Assembly: GCA_015904075.1 (NCBI GenBank)
Contig: JABMDH010000021.1
Location: 1 to 7,470 of the forward strand
Direction: 5' to 3'
Source: Nitrospira sp.
GTDB lineage: Bacteria; Nitrospirota; Nitrospiria; Nitrospirales; Nitrospiraceae
DNA length: 7,470 nucleotides
Shown here: positions 695-7,470 of the stretch, piece by piece
How positions within the stretch are numbered: the stretch's first letter is position 1
Layout: the number at the start of each line of letters is the position of its first letter
Position numbers and translations under genes: made by a program
The notes under the pieces: generated by a model
Told to the model about the DNA's origin: nothing
Seen by the model: the letters and a program-made list of their open reading frames with translations, nothing else
The model's database searches: none

Positions 695-1099
695 CTAAAA
701 GATTCCGGCTTGCTTTTGGAGCCAGCGGACGTATTTCACGATCTGCTCGACGTCATCCGGTTTCACGGCGTCGATCTTCGGCATGTCGCCGAACTGCCAA
801 TGGTGCGATTTAACGCCGTTGGCGGCGGCGCGCTGGAAGGCGGCATCGCCATGATGATTGGGCTCATAGACTTTGTGCACGAGCGGCGGCCCTTGCTTGG
901 TTCCGACGCCTCCTGCCCCGTGACAGGCTGAGCAATTGGCGGTGAACTTCTGTTCTCCGTCGCGCAGCTCGGCTGGAGCCGGACTGGCCGCTCCTTGCGG
1001 CGGAGGCGGCTCGGTTTGGCTGCATGCCGGTGCGGCACTAAGCACCAGTGCGATGAAACTGACCCCAAGCATCCGTGGCATCTTCATAGTTGTGCTCAT
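695..1099 (-). CDS. Periplasmic monohaem cytochrome c, copy A
   Basis: The 134-residue product is a small class I cytochrome c. Residues 1-26 form a signal sequence ending in SAAPAC. Cleavage could be by signal peptidase I after APA, or Cys26 could be lipidated, but Pro at -2 makes the lipobox poor. A Pro/Ala-rich linker (about 27-44) leads into the haem domain. CSACH at 56-60 attaches haem covalently through two cysteines with His60 as axial ligand, and Met106 in GDMP is the likely distal ligand. The C-terminal helix, VEQIVKYVRWLQKQ, is typical of the family. The likely role is electron transfer in the periplasm; the partner is unknown. I chose the MSTTMK start because it is shared with copy B; no clear Shine-Dalgarno precedes it, and MKMPRM four codons later is an alternative. 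It is followed by the small exported protein gene. Confidence 0.9.
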   Translation of the reverse strand: MSTTMKMPRMLGVSFIALVLSAAPACSQTEPPPPQGAASPAPAELRDGEQKFTANCSACHGAGGVGTKQGPPLVHKVYEPNHHGDAAFQRAAANGVKSHHWQFGDMPKIDAVKPDDVEQIVKYVRWLQKQAGIF

Positions 1100-1114
1100 C
1101 TGGTTTGTCTGGTT

Positions 1115-1191
1115 GGTTTCGTTCATCCGGTTTCTGTTGTTTTTCTGGTTACTCTGGTTCAACAAGAGAAACCGAACAAACGAAAGAAACC
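1115..1191 (-). repeat. Long imperfect inverted repeat between truncated queC and cytochrome copy A
   Basis: GGTTTC (1115-1120) pairs with GAAACC (1186-1191), CGGTTTC (1128-1134) with GAAACCG (1168-1174), and GTTG with CAAC (1160-1163), giving an interrupted stem of about 18 pairs. The left arm and loop also carry repeated CTGGTT/TCTGGTTTG words. No U-tract follows in the direction of the cytochrome gene, so a simple intrinsic terminator is not shown. It may act as an RNA processing or stability element, or be a remnant of a dispersed intergenic repeat. Confidence 0.5.
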
Positions 1192-1202
1192 CTTTCGCCT
1201 TT

Positions 1203-1673
1203 TCACGATACCGCATACGGGATCGGATCCTCAACTCCCGCGTCGGCAAATCCCTGTTTGCGAATGAGGCAGCTGTCGCACAGCCCGCAGGCCACGGCTC
1301 CGACTGGATCATAACAACTGTGTGTCAGGTGAATCGGTGCGTTCAGCGTCATACCGAGGCGAATGATATCCGCTTTGGTCATCGACAACAGCGGCGTACG
1401 CACCTCGATCCGTCTTCCCTCGGCGCCTGCTTTCGTCCCGGCCTGCACCACGGCCTCGAATGCCCGAAGAAACTCATCGCGACAATCGGGATACCCCGAA
1501 TAGTCCACCACGTTTGCGCCGAAATAGATCACCGAGGCCCCCAGCACTTCCGCATGGGCTGCAGCGAGCGACAGAAAGATTAAATTTCTTCCCGGCACAT
1601 AGGTAATGGGGATGCCCTGACCACGGTCTTGTTCGGTGCGATTTTTTGGAACGGGGAGATCATCTGTCAGCGC
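1203..1673 (-). pseudogene. queC: 5'-truncated queC (7-cyano-7-deazaguanine synthase), copy A
   Basis: This is the 3' two thirds of a queC gene, matching intact queC from about residue 83 (ALTDDLPVPKNR) to the last residue. It keeps TYVPGRN, the GYPDCR segment and the zinc-binding cysteines HSCYDP, CGLCDSC. It lacks the N-terminal part with the SGGLDST ATP pyrophosphatase loop, so it cannot carry out the ATP-dependent conversion of carboxydeazaguanine to preQ0. The 5' break is sharp: 18 unrelated bases separate it from the TGA that ends the HlyD fragment, and that TGA is in the same reading frame. No ATG lies near the break; the first plausible start is a GTG at 1598, deep inside. The remaining frame has no stop or frameshift, and it differs from copy B by only a few residues (for example S/P, D/T, M/L, A/T). 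Confidence 0.85.
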
Positions 1674-1691
1674 GACATTCTCACCGTCTGA

Positions 1692-2198
1692 TCACCGCTC
1701 CCTGAGGCTTTCTTTGACGGACTTAAGCAGCGGGCTCAAGAGATACTCGATCACGCGGCGCTGGCCGGTCTTAATCTCTACCGTGACGGCCATGCCGGAC
1801 GTCAGATGGACCTGCTTCCCCTCGACCTGGATGGTCCCTCGATCCATGCTAACCCGCGTGGGATACACCAATCCCACTTTTTCGATTGGCGCCGCGTCGC
1901 CGGACACAGTCAAAACCCGGCCTGGAATGGTTCCATACAGGGTGAACGGGAAGGCTTCGACTTTGATTTCAACCGGTTGCCCCTCGCTCACAAACCCGAC
2001 ATCTTTGTTTTCGACCTGCGCTTCCACCTCGACCGGATGCTCCTGCGGCACGACGATAAGAAGCGGTTGGGCCGGTGTCACCACACCGCCGACCGTATGC
2101 ACGGCCAGCTGTTGCACTACCCCGTCAATCGGCGTCGTCAGCCGCTGCAAGTCGGCCTTTTGGCCGGCCTTCGTCACGTCCTGTGCGGCAGCCGGTTG
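1692..2198 (-). pseudogene. C-terminal fragment of an HlyD-family type I secretion membrane fusion protein
   Basis: About 165 codons remain. The fragment starts in the end of the alpha-helical hairpin (AAAQDVTKAGQKADLQ), then has the second lipoyl half (TPIDGVVQQLAVHTVGGVV), then the beta-barrel and C-terminal domain (GLVYPTRVSMDR, SGMAVTVEIKTGQRRVIEYLLSPL). It ends at what looks like the native HlyD C-terminus. Full-length adaptors have roughly 400-480 residues with a membrane anchor near the N-terminus; that anchor, the first lipoyl half and most of the hairpin are missing. The frame is closed by a TAG about three codons upstream of the recognisable part, and the only internal start is a GTG at 2177 with no good ribosome binding site. 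No ABC exporter gene is nearby. I read it as a translocated gene remnant wedged between the two duplicate copies. Confidence 0.85.
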
Positions 2199-2368: not shown

Positions 2369-2411
2369 AACCGTTTATCTCCGGCTCAGAACCACACTTT
2401 TCAAACCCCGA

Positions 2412-2701
2412 CTATTGTTTCCCCTTATTCATATGTGAATCCATCATCCCACTCATACTGCCGCTTGGCGATAAAGACAGGGACGACAACTGATCTGTTG
2501 CCTTCTTGATCGCTGCCATATTCTTTTGGAGCGCATCCACATTCTTCTGCGTCTCGATCAGCGAAGTCCCAATCTAAGCCACCGAATCTTTGGTCCCGAA
2601 GAGCCCCTGGGCCGAAGCCACATGGAGGGACAGGCCCCCGAAACCGAATCCGAGCAAAATGCAGGAACCGCAATGATGCTGAACGAGCGCATAGTCGTCA
2701 T
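2412..2701 (-). pseudogene. Decayed second copy of the small exported coiled-coil protein gene
   Basis: The sequence aligns end to end with the intact gene at 200-487, from ATGACGACTATGCGC to a TAG at the matching place. It is broken in two ways. One base is missing in the A-run near 2656-2660, which shifts the frame inside the signal peptide. CAG of the intact gene has become TAG at 2574-2576, in the segment VA(Q)IGTS. A 3-base insertion near 2460-2485 keeps frame. The strong AGGAGG site in front of copy A is also gone, lost with the flanking deletion. It cannot make the intact protein; the two lesions and the missing ribosome binding site suggest established, not fresh, inactivation. Confidence 0.85.
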
Positions 2702-2736
2702 AATCGCAGTTCACTCATAGAATAGTCCCATGCCAT
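2698..2736 (-). CDS. Copy B counterpart of the short MAWDYSMSE ORF
   Basis: This 12-codon frame, MAWDYSMSELRL, shares its first nine residues with the ORF at 519-572. Here the flanking deletion has changed the tail, and its TGA overlaps the ATG of the decayed gene that follows. The upstream Shine-Dalgarno is weaker (GAGG, about 11 bases before the ATG). Without the copy A match I would not list it. Confidence 0.2.
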   Translation of the reverse strand: MAWDYSMSELRL

Positions 2737-2858
2737 GAGACGGCACATCCTCGATAGACAGAGGGAGGGTATGGATAGGCTTGTTTGTTGTGAGCGAGCA
2801 CGGCACTACACTCTTGCAGTACCGTGACACGGCAGCGGGGCGTAGACTGGGCTGCTGG

Positions 2859-3263
2859 CTAAAAGATCCCGGCTTGCTTTTGGAGCCAGCGGACGTATTT
2901 CACGATCTGCTCGACGTCATCCGGTTTCACGGCATCGATCTTCGGCATATCGCCGAACTGCCAATGGTGCGATTTCACGCCGTTGGCGGCAGCGCGCAGA
3001 AAAGCGACATCGCCATGATGATTGGGCTCGTAGATTTTGTGGACGAGCGGCGGACCTTGTTTGGTTCCGACGCCTCCGGCACCGTGACAGGCTGAGCAAT
3101 TGGCGGTGAACTTCTGTTCGCCATCTCGCAGCTCGGCCGGAGCCGGACTGGCTGCTCCTTGTGGCGGAGGCGGCTCACTTTGGCTGCAGGCCGGCGCGGC
3201 GCTGAGGAGGAGCGCGAGGAAACCGATTCCAAATATCTGCGGTATCTTCATAGTGGTGCTCAT
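2859..3263 (-). CDS. Periplasmic monohaem cytochrome c, copy B
   Basis: The 134-residue product has the same length as copy A and about 90 percent identity by eye. CSACH at 56-60 binds haem and Met106 (GDMP) is the likely second axial ligand. Of about twelve differences, eight lie in the signal sequence (residues 7-19); the part after the signal differs at only four places (T29S, V77I, A86V, Q89L). Most base differences in the haem domain are at third codon positions, which points to selection on both copies. The start was chosen at MSTTMK by conservation with copy A; the upstream extension MNHMNEPHH is not shared and no Shine-Dalgarno decides the point. It lies downstream of intact queC, 104 bases away, and its probable role is periplasmic electron transfer. 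Confidence 0.9.
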   Translation of the reverse strand: MSTTMKIPQIFGIGFLALLLSAAPACSQSEPPPPQGAASPAPAELRDGEQKFTANCSACHGAGGVGTKQGPPLVHKIYEPNHHGDVAFLRAAANGVKSHHWQFGDMPKIDAVKPDDVEQIVKYVRWLQKQAGIF

Positions 3264-3299
3264 GTGATGTGGTTCATTCATATGGTTCATCTAGTCTCT

Positions 3300-3346
3300 C
3301 GTGTTTGTCCGGTTGCGCTGGTTCAACAAGAAAACCCAAACACACG
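3300..3346 (-). repeat. Inverted repeat between queC and cytochrome copy B
   Basis: GTGTTTG (3301-3307) can pair with CAAACAC (3337-3343), with a possible CG extension to 3346, around a loop that itself holds GTTG/CAAC. It is the positional equivalent of the larger hairpin at 1115-1191, but the two differ more than the flanking genes do. No T-run follows on the minus strand. Confidence 0.4.
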
Positions 3347-3367
3347 AAAGAAACCCTTTCGCATCAT

Positions 3368-4084
3368 TTACGATACCGCATATGGGATCGGATCCTCAAC
3401 TCCCGCGTCGGCAAATCCCTGTTTGCGAATCAGACAGCTATCGCACAGACCGCAGGCCACGGTCCCAACCGGGTCGTAGCAACTGTGTGTCAGGTGAATC
3501 GGCGCGTTCAGGGTCATGCCGAGGCGAATAATATCCGCTTTGGTCAGCGACAGCAGCGGCGTACGCACCTCAATTCGTCTTCCTTCGGCACCGGCTTTCG
3601 TCCCGGCCTGCACCACGGCCTCAAATGCCCGAAGAAACTCGGTGCGGCAGTCAGGATAGCCCGAATAGTCCACTACGTTGGCGCCGAAATAGATTACCGG
3701 AGCCCCTAGCACTTCCGCATGGGCTGCGGCGAGCGACAGAAAGATTAAATTTCTTCCCGGCACATACGTAACGGGGATGCCCTGACCACGGTCTTGTTCA
3801 GTGCGATTTTTTGGAACGGGGAGATCATCCGTCAGCGCCGACCCGCCGATTGCCCGCAAGTCGACCTCGATCACGAGATGCTGCTGCGCTCCCAAAGCCG
3901 CCGCGACCTGACCGGCTCGTTCGATCTCTATGGCGTGCCGCTGCCGATAGGCCAGGGTCAACAGATAGATCTCATACCCGTCTCGCTGTGCCACTGCCGC
4001 CGTCACGGTGGAATCCAGCCCGCCGCTGGCAAGGATGACCGCCCGTTGACGTCTGCGCTCGTTCACAACAGCGATCTGCCTCAT
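3368..4084 (-). CDS. queC: 7-cyano-7-deazaguanine synthase QueC
   Basis: QueC is a cytoplasmic enzyme that converts 7-carboxy-7-deazaguanine, ammonia and ATP into preQ0, the precursor of queuosine in tRNA. The 238-residue product has the usual length. SGGLDST at 20-26 is the ATP pyrophosphatase loop. TYVPGRN at 106-112 and GANVVDYSGYPDCR at 134-147 are family signatures. Cys202, Cys211, Cys214 and Cys217 (HSCYDP, CGLCDSC) form the zinc site. I chose the ATG at 4084 (MRQIAVV); no strong Shine-Dalgarno precedes it. A GTG at 4066 is an alternative, with GAGG rather far (12 bases) upstream. An open frame continues to 4264 but overlaps the end of the DksA-like gene and looks non-coding. The preceding gene ends 113 bases away. 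No queD, queE or queF is in the window. Confidence 0.95.
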   Translation of the reverse strand: MRQIAVVNERRRQRAVILASGGLDSTVTAAVAQRDGYEIYLLTLAYRQRHAIEIERAGQVAAALGAQQHLVIEVDLRAIGGSALTDDLPVPKNRTEQDRGQGIPVTYVPGRNLIFLSLAAAHAEVLGAPVIYFGANVVDYSGYPDCRTEFLRAFEAVVQAGTKAGAEGRRIEVRTPLLSLTKADIIRLGMTLNAPIHLTHSCYDPVGTVACGLCDSCLIRKQGFADAGVEDPIPYAVS

Positions 4085-4197
4085 GTTCCATGCCGAAACC
4101 GCGTGAGGACATCCCTCACGCCCGGCACGACAGCCTGGAACCATGTGTTGATGAAGTGGTGCGCGGCTGAGCGCCGCACTGCCGGAACGGCTGATGA

Positions 4198-4791
4198 TTA
4201 ATCGCGATCTTCTTCTCGCTCGATTTTTTCCAACAACTCTTCGCGCGACTGGCACTCGACGCACAGCTTGGCAAATGGCACGACTTGCAGCCGTTTTTCA
4301 CTGACTTCGATCCCGCAGTTGGCACAAATCCCATAGGTGCCTTCGTGCAAACGGGTGATCGCCTCATCAATGGACTGCCGGCGACGGTTGCGCATCTCCA
4401 TCAACGAGATGCCGAGCTCCCGCTCCAGATCCATCAAGGCTTGGTCGCCGACGTCGCGCGCCGACTCTAATCGCCGCTGCTGATCCTCCGTCAGTGACTG
4501 TCCTAAGCTCTCTTCGATTTCTTTAATAATCGCCTGCCGCTTCTCCAGCAGCATCTTATGCAGTATTTCCTGACGCCGCTCCCGGGCTTCCCGCTCCTTG
4601 GCCGTTTCCTTGGGACGAAGGTTCGTTTCCGTGACGACCACCGCCGGAGCTGGTTTCACGACAGCGGCCGCAACCGCCGATTTCACCGCTACTACAGCGG
4701 CTGCCGGTTTCGACTTTCCCTGAGCAGACCGAACTGACTTGGGCTTTGACTTGGCTACCGGCTTTTTCTTGGCTTGTATTTTCGTGGCCAT
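4198..4791 (-). CDS. DksA/TraR-family zinc-finger transcriptional regulator
   Basis: The 197-residue product has a lysine/alanine/valine-rich low-complexity N-terminal arm (about 1-60), then a long charged helical region (about 65-145) matching the DksA coiled coil. It ends with a C4 zinc finger, CANC then CVEC, 17 residues between the pairs as in DksA. The downstream RLHEGTYGICANCG and RLQVVPFAKLCVEC are family signatures. Proteins of this type bind in the RNA polymerase secondary channel and alter promoter choice, often with ppGpp. The basic N-terminal extension is longer than in E. coli DksA and resembles the arms seen in many non-proteobacterial members. The ATG at 4791 was chosen because GGGAG lies about four bases upstream; an open extension to 4842 runs through a hairpin and is unlikely. 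queC follows after 113 bases. Confidence 0.9.
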   Translation of the reverse strand: MATKIQAKKKPVAKSKPKSVRSAQGKSKPAAAVVAVKSAVAAAVVKPAPAVVVTETNLRPKETAKEREARERRQEILHKMLLEKRQAIIKEIEESLGQSLTEDQQRRLESARDVGDQALMDLERELGISLMEMRNRRRQSIDEAITRLHEGTYGICANCGIEVSEKRLQVVPFAKLCVECQSREELLEKIEREEDRD

Positions 4792-4820
4792 GACGCTCCC
4801 ACTCATTCCTGAGACGTTAG

Positions 4821-4844
4821 AGATGCCGAAAAAGCTCGGCATCT
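4821..4844 (-). terminator. Hairpin between the sigma-Apt frame and the DksA-like gene, possible terminator
   Basis: AGATGCCGA (4821-4829) and TCGGCATCT (4836-4844) form a perfect 9-bp stem with a 6-base loop. It lies 56 bases past the stop of the sigma-Apt frame and 29 bases before the DksA-like start. The minus-strand sequence after it is TCT-rich at best, with no true U-run, so it may be a weak terminator or a 5' leader structure of the DksA-like mRNA. Confidence 0.45.
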
Positions 4845-4899
4845 ATATCACGGCACTTCGTCTTTGACAAGAGGATGTGGTGCGACCCTTGGAGGACCG

Positions 4900-6051
4900 C
4901 TACGGATAGATGATGGTCGAATGGACGTCGTACCCGGCGAGTTTGCTGCGCCCGTTCAGGCCCTTGAGCTCGACGAGAAAATCGAGTCCGACGATTTCTC
5001 CACCGAGCTGACGGACCAGATTCACCGTCGCTTCAGCCGTTCCTCCCGTGGCAAGGAGATCATCCACGATAAGCACGCGTTCCCCCATGCCGATCGCATC
5101 CCTGTGGATCGCCAGAGAGTTCGCGCCATACTCGAGGCTGTATTTCACTTCGTAGCAATCGGCCGGAAGCTTCCCCGGTTTGCGGACCGGAACAAACCCG
5201 GCGCCGAGACGCGCCGCCAGGATTCCCGCAAAGATGAACCCGCGAGACTCAATACCCACCACTTTCGCCACACCACGTTCCTGATACCGGCTCGCCAATT
5301 CATCCGCCAGGCTCCGCATCGCAGCGGCATGATCGGCGGTCTCGTCGGGAGACAGTCCGATCGGGTCTTCGATCACGTCGCGAAGGAACGTATCGGACTG
5401 ATCGTTGATCGGACTATCGAGCGAACAGGTCGTACGAACCAACTGCTTCAGATCGAGCACTTCCTCTTCGGAGGTTTTCATTTTGACGGCGACTTCTTGC
5501 GCCCTCGGTTCACGGCCCAGCTCCTGCACCAGCTGCTCGACCTTACCGAGATAGCGGTTCAACCGCTCGACGACATGGACCGGCAGACGCACAAGCTTCC
5601 CTTGATTGATGATGGCCCGTTCAATGTACTGCCGGATCCACCACGAGGCGTAGGTACTGAACCGGAAACCGCGTTTGTAATTGAATTTTTCGACGGCCTT
5701 GATGAGGCCCAAATTGCCTTCTTCGACGATGTCGGAAAAGGGAAACCCCCGATGCATATAGCGTTTCCCGATACTGATGACGAGACGCAAGTTGGACTCG
5801 ATCATTTGCTGGCGCGCCTGTTCGTCACCGGCCATAACCAGCTTACCAAGATGCTGCTCCTGCTTGAACGTCAAGAGGGTCGACCGGCGAACCTCCCGCA
5901 GATAACTCTTGAGCGTATCGAGTCCCTCGGATCGTCCGGATTCTTTTTCCGGCCGATCGACAACACTCGTCGATTCCGCGTCATCCGCGTCGTCGACGGT
6001 CTGCTGTCGAGAGTCACTCACCGCAAGATGCCCGCCGCGTAGTCGGCTCAT
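4900..6051 (-). CDS. Fusion frame: RpoS/RpoD-type sigma factor lacking region 4, joined to N-terminally truncated adenine phosphoribosyltransferase
   Basis: One unbroken 383-codon frame holds parts of two unrelated proteins. Residues 1-43 are an acidic arm. Residues 44-240 match group 1/2 sigma-70 factors: region 1.2 ([10 protein letters not shown]), region 2 with [31 protein letters not shown] and [11 protein letters not shown] (2.3-2.4, promoter melting and -10 recognition), and region 3 (GRIEP-like [10 protein letters not shown], up to [14 protein letters not shown]). Region 4, which reads the -35 element, is absent. From about residue 241 the sequence is adenine phosphoribosyltransferase: [28 protein letters not shown], and the PRPP motif [13 protein letters not shown] (327-339), through a normal C-terminus. 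About 35 N-terminal Apt residues (the PGI-FKDIT hood segment that contacts adenine) are missing. The start ATG at 6051 has GGGAG nine bases upstream. Met245 is the only nearby internal start for Apt and has no ribosome binding site. Whether either half works is unknown. Confidence 0.85.
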
Positions 6052-6103
6052 ACGAAATCGCTCCCTGCTTCCTCTAGTCCTGCCTCACACATGTCGGGCA
6101 GCG

Positions 6104-6406
6104 TTAGTACCAGATACTGAACTGTGAAAACCGGCCGGTCGCTTGCTTCCATTCTGTCTCGATCTTCGTTACGCGCGCGGCCGGTGGACCGGTCTTGAGC
6201 TCATGCACGAGCGCGTCCACCGCAGCCCTCGTACCTTCCACATCCAGCTCGACCCGGCCATCGTCGAGGTTTCGAACCCCGCCGAAAAGCGCATGACGCG
6301 ATGCCACACGCGCCGCAAACGCCCGATACCCCACCCCTTGCACCCGGCCGCTTACCAGAATCTGCGCGCGAACCGCTGTCGCGCCAGCCGCCTCAGCCAT
6401 TCGCAT
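6104..6406 (-). CDS. acyP: Acylphosphatase
   Basis: This 100-residue protein has the full acylphosphatase fold signature: SGRVQGVGYRAF near residues 19-30 (phosphate-binding loop with the catalytic Arg in GYR), then GGVRNLDDGRVELDVEG at about 42-58 (catalytic Asn in RNL), and a C-terminal FSIWY beta strand. Such enzymes hydrolyse acyl phosphates such as 1,3-bisphosphoglycerate or carbamoyl phosphate in the cytoplasm. Length is normal (about 90-100). The ATG at 6406 is the first in frame after a TGA; ATG at 6400 is equally possible and neither has a clear Shine-Dalgarno. A better AGGAAGAG site upstream serves an ATG in another frame. It ends 52 bases before the sigma-Apt frame, so the two may be cotranscribed. 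Confidence 0.9.
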   Translation of the reverse strand: MRMAEAAGATAVRAQILVSGRVQGVGYRAFAARVASRHALFGGVRNLDDGRVELDVEGTRAAVDALVHELKTGPPAARVTKIETEWKQATGRFSQFSIWY

Positions 6407-6526
6407 TACCGTGACGCATCACAACCTGCTTCATACCGGCTCTTCCTGCCCACGGATACTCTCACACCTCCCTACACTCGTCACGCATTTTGCTATTCTG
6501 CACGGACACGCGGATCGTAGCAGCCA

Positions 6527-6547
6527 CCGACAATCTTGTCGGGACAA
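6527..6547. promoter_or_regulatory. Overlapping palindromes, possible operator or leader hairpin
   Basis: CCGACAA-TC-TTGTCGG (6527-6542) is a perfect 7-bp inverted repeat, and TTGTC-GG-GACAA (6536-6547) overlaps it. Three alternating GACAA/TTGTC half-sites thus lie in 21 bases, about 120 bases upstream of the acyP start. This arrangement resembles a dimer binding site with an extra half-site. No recognised regulator consensus matches, and a loop of only two bases makes an RNA hairpin less favourable. Confidence 0.3.
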
Positions 6548-6696
6548 CGATGCCGCACTAATGCATGTACACAAAGAACGCGGGTGGAATGAGAACCATC
6601 TTCCCTTGCACGGTGTGTCCGCCGGAAACAATCGCCAAGCTTGGGAAAGAACCGGCCAGTCACATGACGTGCTGTATTATCGTACGGGAAGCGGTG

Positions 6697-6909
6697 ATAC
6701 TTGAGGAACCTATCCGCGGGCATCAATGACGATACCGCAATGAAGAACCGGCGATACGAGCAGGCTTGAAAAAGAATTGCAGAGAAAATACTTGAGGAAC
6801 TAATCCGCAGGCACGATCCGCAATACAGCGATTCCCTGCCTGCGGACCACACGAAGTGCGGCGTCATCATATGGGGAGAGAAGATACTTGTGGAGTCTAT
6901 CCGCCGGCA
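6697..6909. repeat. Three copies of a 26-bp direct repeat, two within covarying hairpins
   Basis: The unit, roughly ATACTTGAGGAACTAATCCGCNGGCA on the plus strand, occurs at 6697-6722, 6788-6813 and 6884-6909, with periods of 91 and 96 bases. In copy 2, CCGCAGGCA (6805-6813) pairs with TGCCTGCGG (6837-6845). In copy 3, CCGCCGGC (6901-6908) pairs with GCCGGCGG (6933-6940). The A-T pair of copy 2 is a C-G pair in copy 3, so the stem is conserved though the sequence changed. Both hairpins are followed by CACACGAAGTG. Copy 1 lacks the pairing arm and the CACACGAAGTG tail. Transcribed from the tRNA, copy 3 comes directly after the CCA end. Confidence 0.75.
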
Positions 6910-6958
6910 TCACTTACAAAAGCTTTAAAAAAGCCGGCGGGGCACACGAAGTGTGGTG

Positions 6959-7035
<77 letters not shown>

Positions 7036-7052
7036 ACAAGAGCGAGAGAAAC

Positions 7053-7076
7053 AGGAAACGGGAAACGGGAAACGGA
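7053..7076. repeat. GGGAAAC heptanucleotide tandem repeat
   Basis: AGGAAAC GGGAAAC GGGAAAC GGA lies between the end of the alanine dehydrogenase gene and the 5' end of the tRNA. It is just over three units of a simple 7-base repeat. A regulatory role is not evident; strand slippage could vary the copy number. Confidence 0.7.
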
Positions 7077-7081
7077 TTGTC

Positions 7082-7470
7082 TTACAAGATGGGGGTAAAA
7101 CGCAACCCATGGGCATCCGCCACACCCTGACACGTCACCAAGCCGTCTTTGACGTTCACCCCTTTGGCCAATCCGGGATCGGCGCGGATCGCCCGATCGA
7201 CCCCGTCCGAGGCAAGCCGGACCATATACGGCAAGGTGGCATTCGTCAACGCCAGCGTGGAGGTGCGCGGCACAATGCCTGGCATATTGGCGACACAATA
7301 ATGGACCACCCCGTCGACAACATAGACCGGCTCAGAATGGGTCGTCGGCTTCGTCGTTTCGAAACAGCCACCTTGATCGACAGAGACATCCACCACGACA
7401 GCCCCGGGTTTCATCCGCGAGACCGTGGCACGCGAAACCATCTTGGGCGCTTTTGCGCCGGGGACCAGCA
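7082..7470 (-). CDS. ald: Alanine dehydrogenase, C-terminal part (5' end outside the window)
   Basis: The visible 129 codons are the C-terminal third of alanine dehydrogenase, which interconverts L-alanine and pyruvate plus ammonia with NAD in the cytoplasm. [14 protein letters not shown] sequence enters at the edge, followed by [19 protein letters not shown], whose VDQGG holds the catalytic Asp. [16 protein letters not shown] is the nucleotide-side loop, and [12 protein letters not shown] closes the protein. The stop is a TAA at 7082-7084, a normal end for the roughly 370-residue family. The N-terminal domain lies beyond position 7470, so integrity there is not known. The tRNA-Pro gene begins 46 bases downstream on the same strand. 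Confidence 0.93.

Follow-up and report, generated by a model that had tools for sequence, protein, structure and literature searches.

The question raised by this locus is whether a frame that runs from an RpoS-like sigma factor straight into an adenine phosphoribosyltransferase (Apt) represents a new regulator, a recent deletion in a Nitrospira strain, or a fault in the contig that carries it. We analysed the whole stretch of 7,470 nt (hereafter the window) and observed a single open frame of 383 codons with an ATG start on the minus strand (6051..4900, open reading frame list). Residues 1-240 of the encoded hybrid were assigned to sigma regions 1.2, 2 and 3, and residues 241-383 to the phosphoribosyltransferase (PRT) core of Apt. 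The first-pass annotation had described an uninterrupted frame passing from sigma regions 1.2-3 into Apt at about residue 240, near 5320-5340; Pfam and NCBIfam agreed with this description, and reading the window against the closest related locus (L001) located the join after residue 240, at 5332/5331, exact to about 2 nt. The features at and around the join were as follows.

4198..4842, minus strand: gene for a DksA/TraR zinc-finger protein, the normal downstream neighbour of apt (Pfam, relatives' loci)
4900..5331, minus strand: Apt codons 32-174 and stop, carrying the PRT core and PRPP motif but not codons 1-31
5331..5332, minus strand: joint c, the sigma::apt join, in place of 331 nt of L001 (6721-7051)
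5332..6051, minus strand: RpoS-like sigma factor, codons 1-240, region 4 missing (Pfam, NCBIfam, identity to L001)
6104..6406, minus strand: acylphosphatase gene, the normal upstream neighbour of the sigma gene (Pfam, relatives' loci)

Both parts of the hybrid were 95% identical to the respective L001 proteins, and the hybrid is therefore not a chance similarity. The sigma part matched the Pfam models Sigma70_r1_2 (residues 45-77), Sigma70_r2 (83-147) and Sigma70_r3 (162-237), each above cut-off, while no match to sigma region 4 was observed in the hybrid at E <= 0.001. It resembles the Nitrospira RpoS-like sigma factor (L001, 317 aa; TIGR02394) over residues 1-240 and shares its upstream acylphosphatase gene, but differs from it in that region 4 (77 residues), which recognizes the -35 element, is absent and the chain runs on into Apt. 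In line with this loss, which the first reading had also proposed, the hybrid scored 248 bits against the NCBIfam RpoS model TIGR02394, below the cut-off of 378.7, and covered profile positions 7-225 of 285.

The Apt part gave 52.1 bits with the Pfam model Pribosyltran (residues 246-360, cut-off 26.3), and resembles adenine phosphoribosyltransferases (TIGR01090; PDB 4m0k, 5yw2 and 2dy0) in its core fold, its GIESRGF motif and a stretch which we take to be the PRPP motif (both intact, as first reported), its C-terminus and the downstream dksA-like gene. It differs from them in lacking the first 31 residues. The first reading had put this loss at about 35 residues. Within the absent residues lies a VPDFPKPGILFYDITTLLK-type segment that is visible in the Apt consensus; the N-terminal segment of Apt is called the hood and contacts adenine. 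NCBIfam Apt models matched the hybrid only from profile position 28-37 on, with TIGR01090 at 170.3 bits falling below its cut-off of 185.85 and NF002636 nevertheless passing with 174.9 bits (cut-off 125). Structure prediction was applied to the Apt part. The resulting AlphaFold2 model had a mean pLDDT of 93.5, and its 12 best matches in the PDB were all APRTs, with query TM scores of 0.93-0.96; the Apt core is thus predicted to fold well even with the first 31 residues removed. Measured dN/dS ratios were 0.05-0.09 for the sigma part (against L001, L002 and L005) and 0.06-0.09 for the Apt part (against L001, L002 and L100).

How the same genes are arranged in relatives was examined by scanning genome contigs with the hybrid, which returned 118 relatives, the best 80 being kept for comparison; their titles name Nitrospira or higher Nitrospirota groups, with the exception of one Nitrosospira. 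At 78 of these 80 loci the sigma gene reads on to a stop codon of its own and is followed by apt as a gene in its own right, as the first-pass annotation had anticipated, and the homologous sigma and Apt parts lie 331-351 nt apart. L054 begins within the sigma gene at a contig end, and L028 and L055 end, also at contig ends, before apt. In L001 the sigma gene (317 codons) and apt (174 codons) are separated by 4 nt, and the 331 nt absent from the window consist of 234 nt (sigma codons 241-317 and the stop), the 4-nt spacer and 93 nt (Apt codons 1-31). A single loss of 331 nt suffices for both truncations and for the preserved frame, which is what had been suggested. One in three deletions of this kind would leave the frame intact, so that the preserved frame does not point to selection.

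The order acylphosphatase - sigma - apt - dksA-like - queC - cytochrome c in the window is that of L001, and among 81 loci these neighbours were matched at 79 (acylphosphatase), 79 (dksA-like), 75 (queC) and 73 (cytochrome c). Within the genus, the sigma gene was observed in 70 of 79 genomes (E <= 1e-80), once in each except G072, where two partial matches correspond to two pieces on two contigs; apt was observed in 71 of 79 (E <= 1e-25), again once in each except G021, which has one whole and one cut copy. Other irregularities of the sigma gene were runs of N (G026 and G010), one internal TAG (G040), and a frame break in region 4 near a contig end (G023:C114, the contig of L028, coverage 1.27). 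Among the genomes read, which are a part of the set, no gap-free deletion in sigma was observed besides that in G021.

In that genome (L100/L108, G021:C249, around 1026-1094), gap-free deletions have removed the acylphosphatase gene and the part of the sigma gene between about codon 20 and codon 242, while apt is whole, and one of these deletions ends 6-11 nt from the sigma break of the window. G021 is a low-quality genome of 1.5 Mb that carries this locus on two contigs, with 90.6% identity between them across 480 nt; its deletion may itself be an artefact, and it is not a strong witness. At the break point in the sigma gene of L001 (6720-6734) there is a perfect palindrome, CGGCGTGCGACGCCG, which ranks among the strongest hairpins in the sigma-apt region. 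The best-folding 40-nt window near this left break is exceeded by only 0.1% of such windows; of the four deletion ends examined, two were at the palindrome and two were away from it. Ligation at a GATC site was also considered for joint c and is unsupported, though conceivable: a GATC is present there, but none occurs at either side in the two closest relatives, L001 and L100. Several relatives at a greater distance do have one on the Apt side, shifted by about 3 nt.

We then asked whether a second hybrid of this kind exists. The protein search used a database of 5.8 billion proteins clustered at 90% identity, so that a hybrid could be hidden within a cluster. No sigma-Apt hybrid appeared in the best 120 of 7,989 scored proteins, and coverage of the hybrid reached 69% at most; the top match among them (P0001) is an intact sigma factor of 317 aa that aligns to 63% of the query at 99% identity. 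A search with the Apt part, restricted to proteins 0.55-1.75 times the length of the hybrid, likewise yielded none for which the Pfam columns show sigma region 2 or 3 fused to Apt (best 120 of 1,919 matches). The closest Apt of normal length among the matches listed was P0241, at 96% identity. Two proteins known from a single record each read across genes of the same operon, P0121 with sigma region 4 plus Apt and P0122 with Apt plus a DksA-like domain.

Searches of genomes across the join, which score the best 5-10 candidates per genome, gave the same picture. With 400 nt around joint c, 72 of 79 genus genomes matched one or both arms and none joined them; some of the Apt-side matches begin 2-3 nt before the joint, and a 29-nt match across it in G003:C19 sits in an unrelated ORF of 523 aa on the other strand. 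When 120 nt were used, matches came from 77 of 175 family genomes, and none joined the arms; two matches begin 3-4 nt before the joint, and six short chance matches of 27-42 nt cross it (G003, G040, G068, G069, G087 and G153). A 25-nt junction pattern had 0 matches in viral contigs, and in the open-licence literature we found no paper that combines a sigma factor, adenine phosphoribosyltransferase and Nitrospira. No second genome with the fusion was found in the genus and family searches or among the proteins listed, as opposed to a conserved gene fusion, which occurs in more than one.

The remainder of the window contained two further joints, which we located by comparison with G001, the genome of L001, together with two copies of a queC-cytochrome c segment.

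695..1312, minus strand: cytochrome c, copy A (Pfam)
1203..1598, minus strand: queC, copy A, reduced to its 3' part (131 codons when counted from the first start), with homology extending to 1673
1673..1674, minus strand: joint a, where sequence 18 nt past the HlyD stop is joined to mid-queC (comparison with G001)
1692..2177, minus strand: type I secretion HlyD gene, C-terminal third, 161 codons (TIGR01843 positions 262-422)
2186..2187, minus strand: joint b, where HlyD is cut mid-gene against unmatched sequence
2859..3290, minus strand: cytochrome c, copy B (Pfam)
3368..4264, minus strand: queC, copy B, complete (Pfam, NCBIfam)

Aligned to G001 (C1:455000-512000), the window falls into the pieces 690-1673, 1674-2186, 2852-5330, 5333-6523, a short 6711-6768, and 6929-7470. 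Relative to G001, in which 28 kb separate them, the two sides of joint a share no bases at the join; a side of this joint is matched in 45 of 79 genus genomes, and none crosses it. At joint b only the HlyD side can be compared, and the 50 of 79 genus genomes that match it likewise do not cross; nothing matched the sequence just beyond (2187-2286). Joint c shares at most one or two bases relative to L001. The HlyD fragment is identical to a G001 frame of 465 codons (C1:464003-465397) at 158 of 161 amino acids, and HlyD was found in 56 of 79 genus genomes (E <= 1e-40), G001 being the best at 98%. Window 1674-2186 is thus a piece of 513 nt, the C-terminal third of HlyD with its 3' flank, with sharp cuts on both sides. 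As a control we used the queC-cytochrome spacer, which is weak in that 63 of 79 genomes match but no more than 2 cover almost its full length; a better control is G001 itself, which aligns unbroken over 2852-5330 and 5333-6523. There is no N anywhere in the window, and no tandem repeats were reported in it. The window therefore shows what is expected of a chimeric contig, several joins absent from the relatives searched, at 1673/1674, 2186/2187 and 5331/5332.

The two queC-cytochrome copies form a direct repeat of about 1.5 kb (162-1673 with 2375-3838; the 3' part of queC, cytochrome c and a small protein) at 83% identity, while L001 has a single copy. Copy A was closer in dS to L001 (queC 0.27, cytochrome c 0.26) than to copy B (0.43 and 0.48), with standard errors of about 0.06-0.1 for these comparisons. 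A tree of ten sequences placed copy A with L001 (SH-aLRT 94, bootstrap 88), but an AU test did not reject A and B as sisters (p 0.07). The cut queC gave dN/dS of 0.04-0.14 against four others, resembling the 0.05-0.10 of intact copies among themselves, which indicates that it was cut recently; and since queC of L001 is complete, copy A, if it groups with L001, is not an old truncated duplicate. That one copy belongs to another lineage is supported but not proven by these sequence comparisons. A contig put together from two lineages would be a simple account of the copies, and a real tandem duplication is also possible.

On this evidence we lean towards the explanation that the sigma-Apt hybrid belongs to a stitched contig, an artefact of assembly or of the library, because three sharp mid-gene joints lie within 7.5 kb, none of which was found in the related genomes searched, together with an odd pair of copies. 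Pieces of Nitrospira DNA would have been wrongly joined in library making or assembly, and the misjoin at joint c would have dropped 331 nt, namely the last part of the sigma gene and the first part of apt next to it. The palindrome at the sigma-side break may have made a polymerase stall or jump, which is suggestive only. The three joins would share one technical cause, and the source organism presumably has separate, intact sigma and apt genes. The first-pass annotation had itself allowed for an artefact, and this option gained weight from the two further mid-gene joins and from a pair of queC-cytochrome copies that seem not to be sisters. Similar to chimeric DNA and contigs in general, the window has abrupt joins of separate segments, singletons, and possibly mixed lineages. 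It differs from published amplification chimeras in that its joints are direct and nearly without shared bases; in one study 85% of chimeric joins were inverted, and in 76.8% priming involved at least 2 complementary bases (PMC1855051).

Several observations count against an artefact. Joint c taken by itself is colinear and looks like a plain deletion. The dS values against L001 were similar on its two sides (sigma 0.329 +- 0.053, Apt 0.342 +- 0.067), a similarity that is weak evidence, as acylphosphatase in the same unbroken block gave 0.16. In G001 no more than 28 kb separates the sides of joint a, so they are not random fragments from a community; as a pair, joints a and b look like the junction of a tandem duplication combined with a deletion, and this could be real. 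The result of the AU test further lowers the odds of an artefact, and the nearby deletion end in G021:C249 could mean a real deletion hot spot.

These observations lead to the main alternative, which we regard as possible though somewhat doubtful: a real and very recent deletion of 331 nt in one Nitrospira strain, the product of which probably has little or no function. In that case the loss may have been promoted by the hairpin at the sigma-side break. A colinear, in-frame join with similar dS on either side is as a deletion would leave it, and the strong hairpin at the left break in L001 and the deletion in G021:C249 ending 6-11 nt away are consistent with it; the low dN/dS of both parts (0.05-0.09) and the 99% identical intact sigma factor P0001 fit a recent event. 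However, a deletion at joint c leaves two further sharp joins in the same contig to be accounted for, has one or two shared bases at most to work with, and would have removed two conserved single-copy genes at once. The supporting case in G021 may be an artefact, only two of four deletion ends are at a hairpin, and the closest Apt listed is 96% identical compared with 99% for the closest sigma, with the caveat that members of the 90% clusters are hidden. If the deletion is real, the result is a strain without an RpoS-like sigma factor and without its adenine salvage enzyme; a strain with the hybrid alone would probably lose both functions, because sigma and apt are single-copy in most relatives searched.

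The hybrid is probably not a new regulator. A working protein, in which a sigma factor for -10 and extended -10 promoters only is fused to an Apt core predicted to sense PRPP, is highly improbable: regions 1.2-3 match Pfam models and the truncated core keeps its predicted fold and PRPP motif, but no second example was found in the protein, genus or family searches, the hybrid as a unit bears no mark of selection, the conserved N-terminal segment is missing from the Apt domain, and the join is probably an artefact. By analogy with PurR of Bacillus, there would be a very slim chance that the Apt core, freed from adenine chemistry by the N-terminal loss, ties transcription to the PRPP pool. The first-pass annotation had offered, as one option, a functional hybrid linking purine state to transcription; of its interpretation, the adjacency of the genes and the single loss were supported and the functional hybrid was not. 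Were it real, it would be a case of a sigma factor gaining an enzyme-derived sensor domain through one deletion.

Known systems provide precedents for parts of such an arrangement. In Bacillus PurR, too, a phosphoribosyltransferase fold is preceded by a transcription domain, and this PRT domain binds PRPP without enzyme activity (PMC8789054); this pairing of a DNA-binding domain with a PRPP-sensing PRT speaks for a working hybrid. PurR has a winged helix at this place, whereas the hybrid has sigma regions 1.2-3 and no N-terminal winged-helix DNA-binding domain, and the PRT of the pur operon repressor was only distantly related (E 5e-9 to P0241). A second precedent is sigma-70 (1-565), which like the hybrid lacks region 4 and is active at the extended -10 galP1 promoter and not at T7 A1 (PMC6237814); it differs in being engineered. 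In SigO-RsoA the sigma regions are split over two proteins (PMC10141391), unlike the single chain here. Neither sigma-70 (1-565) nor SigO-RsoA is described in these sources with an enzyme domain.

The locus also carries a caution for annotation: where an in-frame, domain-perfect hybrid appears in a metagenome-type contig, one may question it by checking whether that contig has further joins that relatives do not share.

In a scan of 4700-6600 there were 0 promoter-like sites (0.6 in shuffled sequences) and 4 terminator-like sites (1.8 in shuffled sequences, sd 1.5). At Rfam gathering thresholds only the tRNA was detected. Window 6524-6930 gave only short matches in relatives' loci. Between the tRNA-Pro and acylphosphatase genes, at 6697-6928, a 45-nt motif recurs in three imperfect copies at intervals of about 95 nt.
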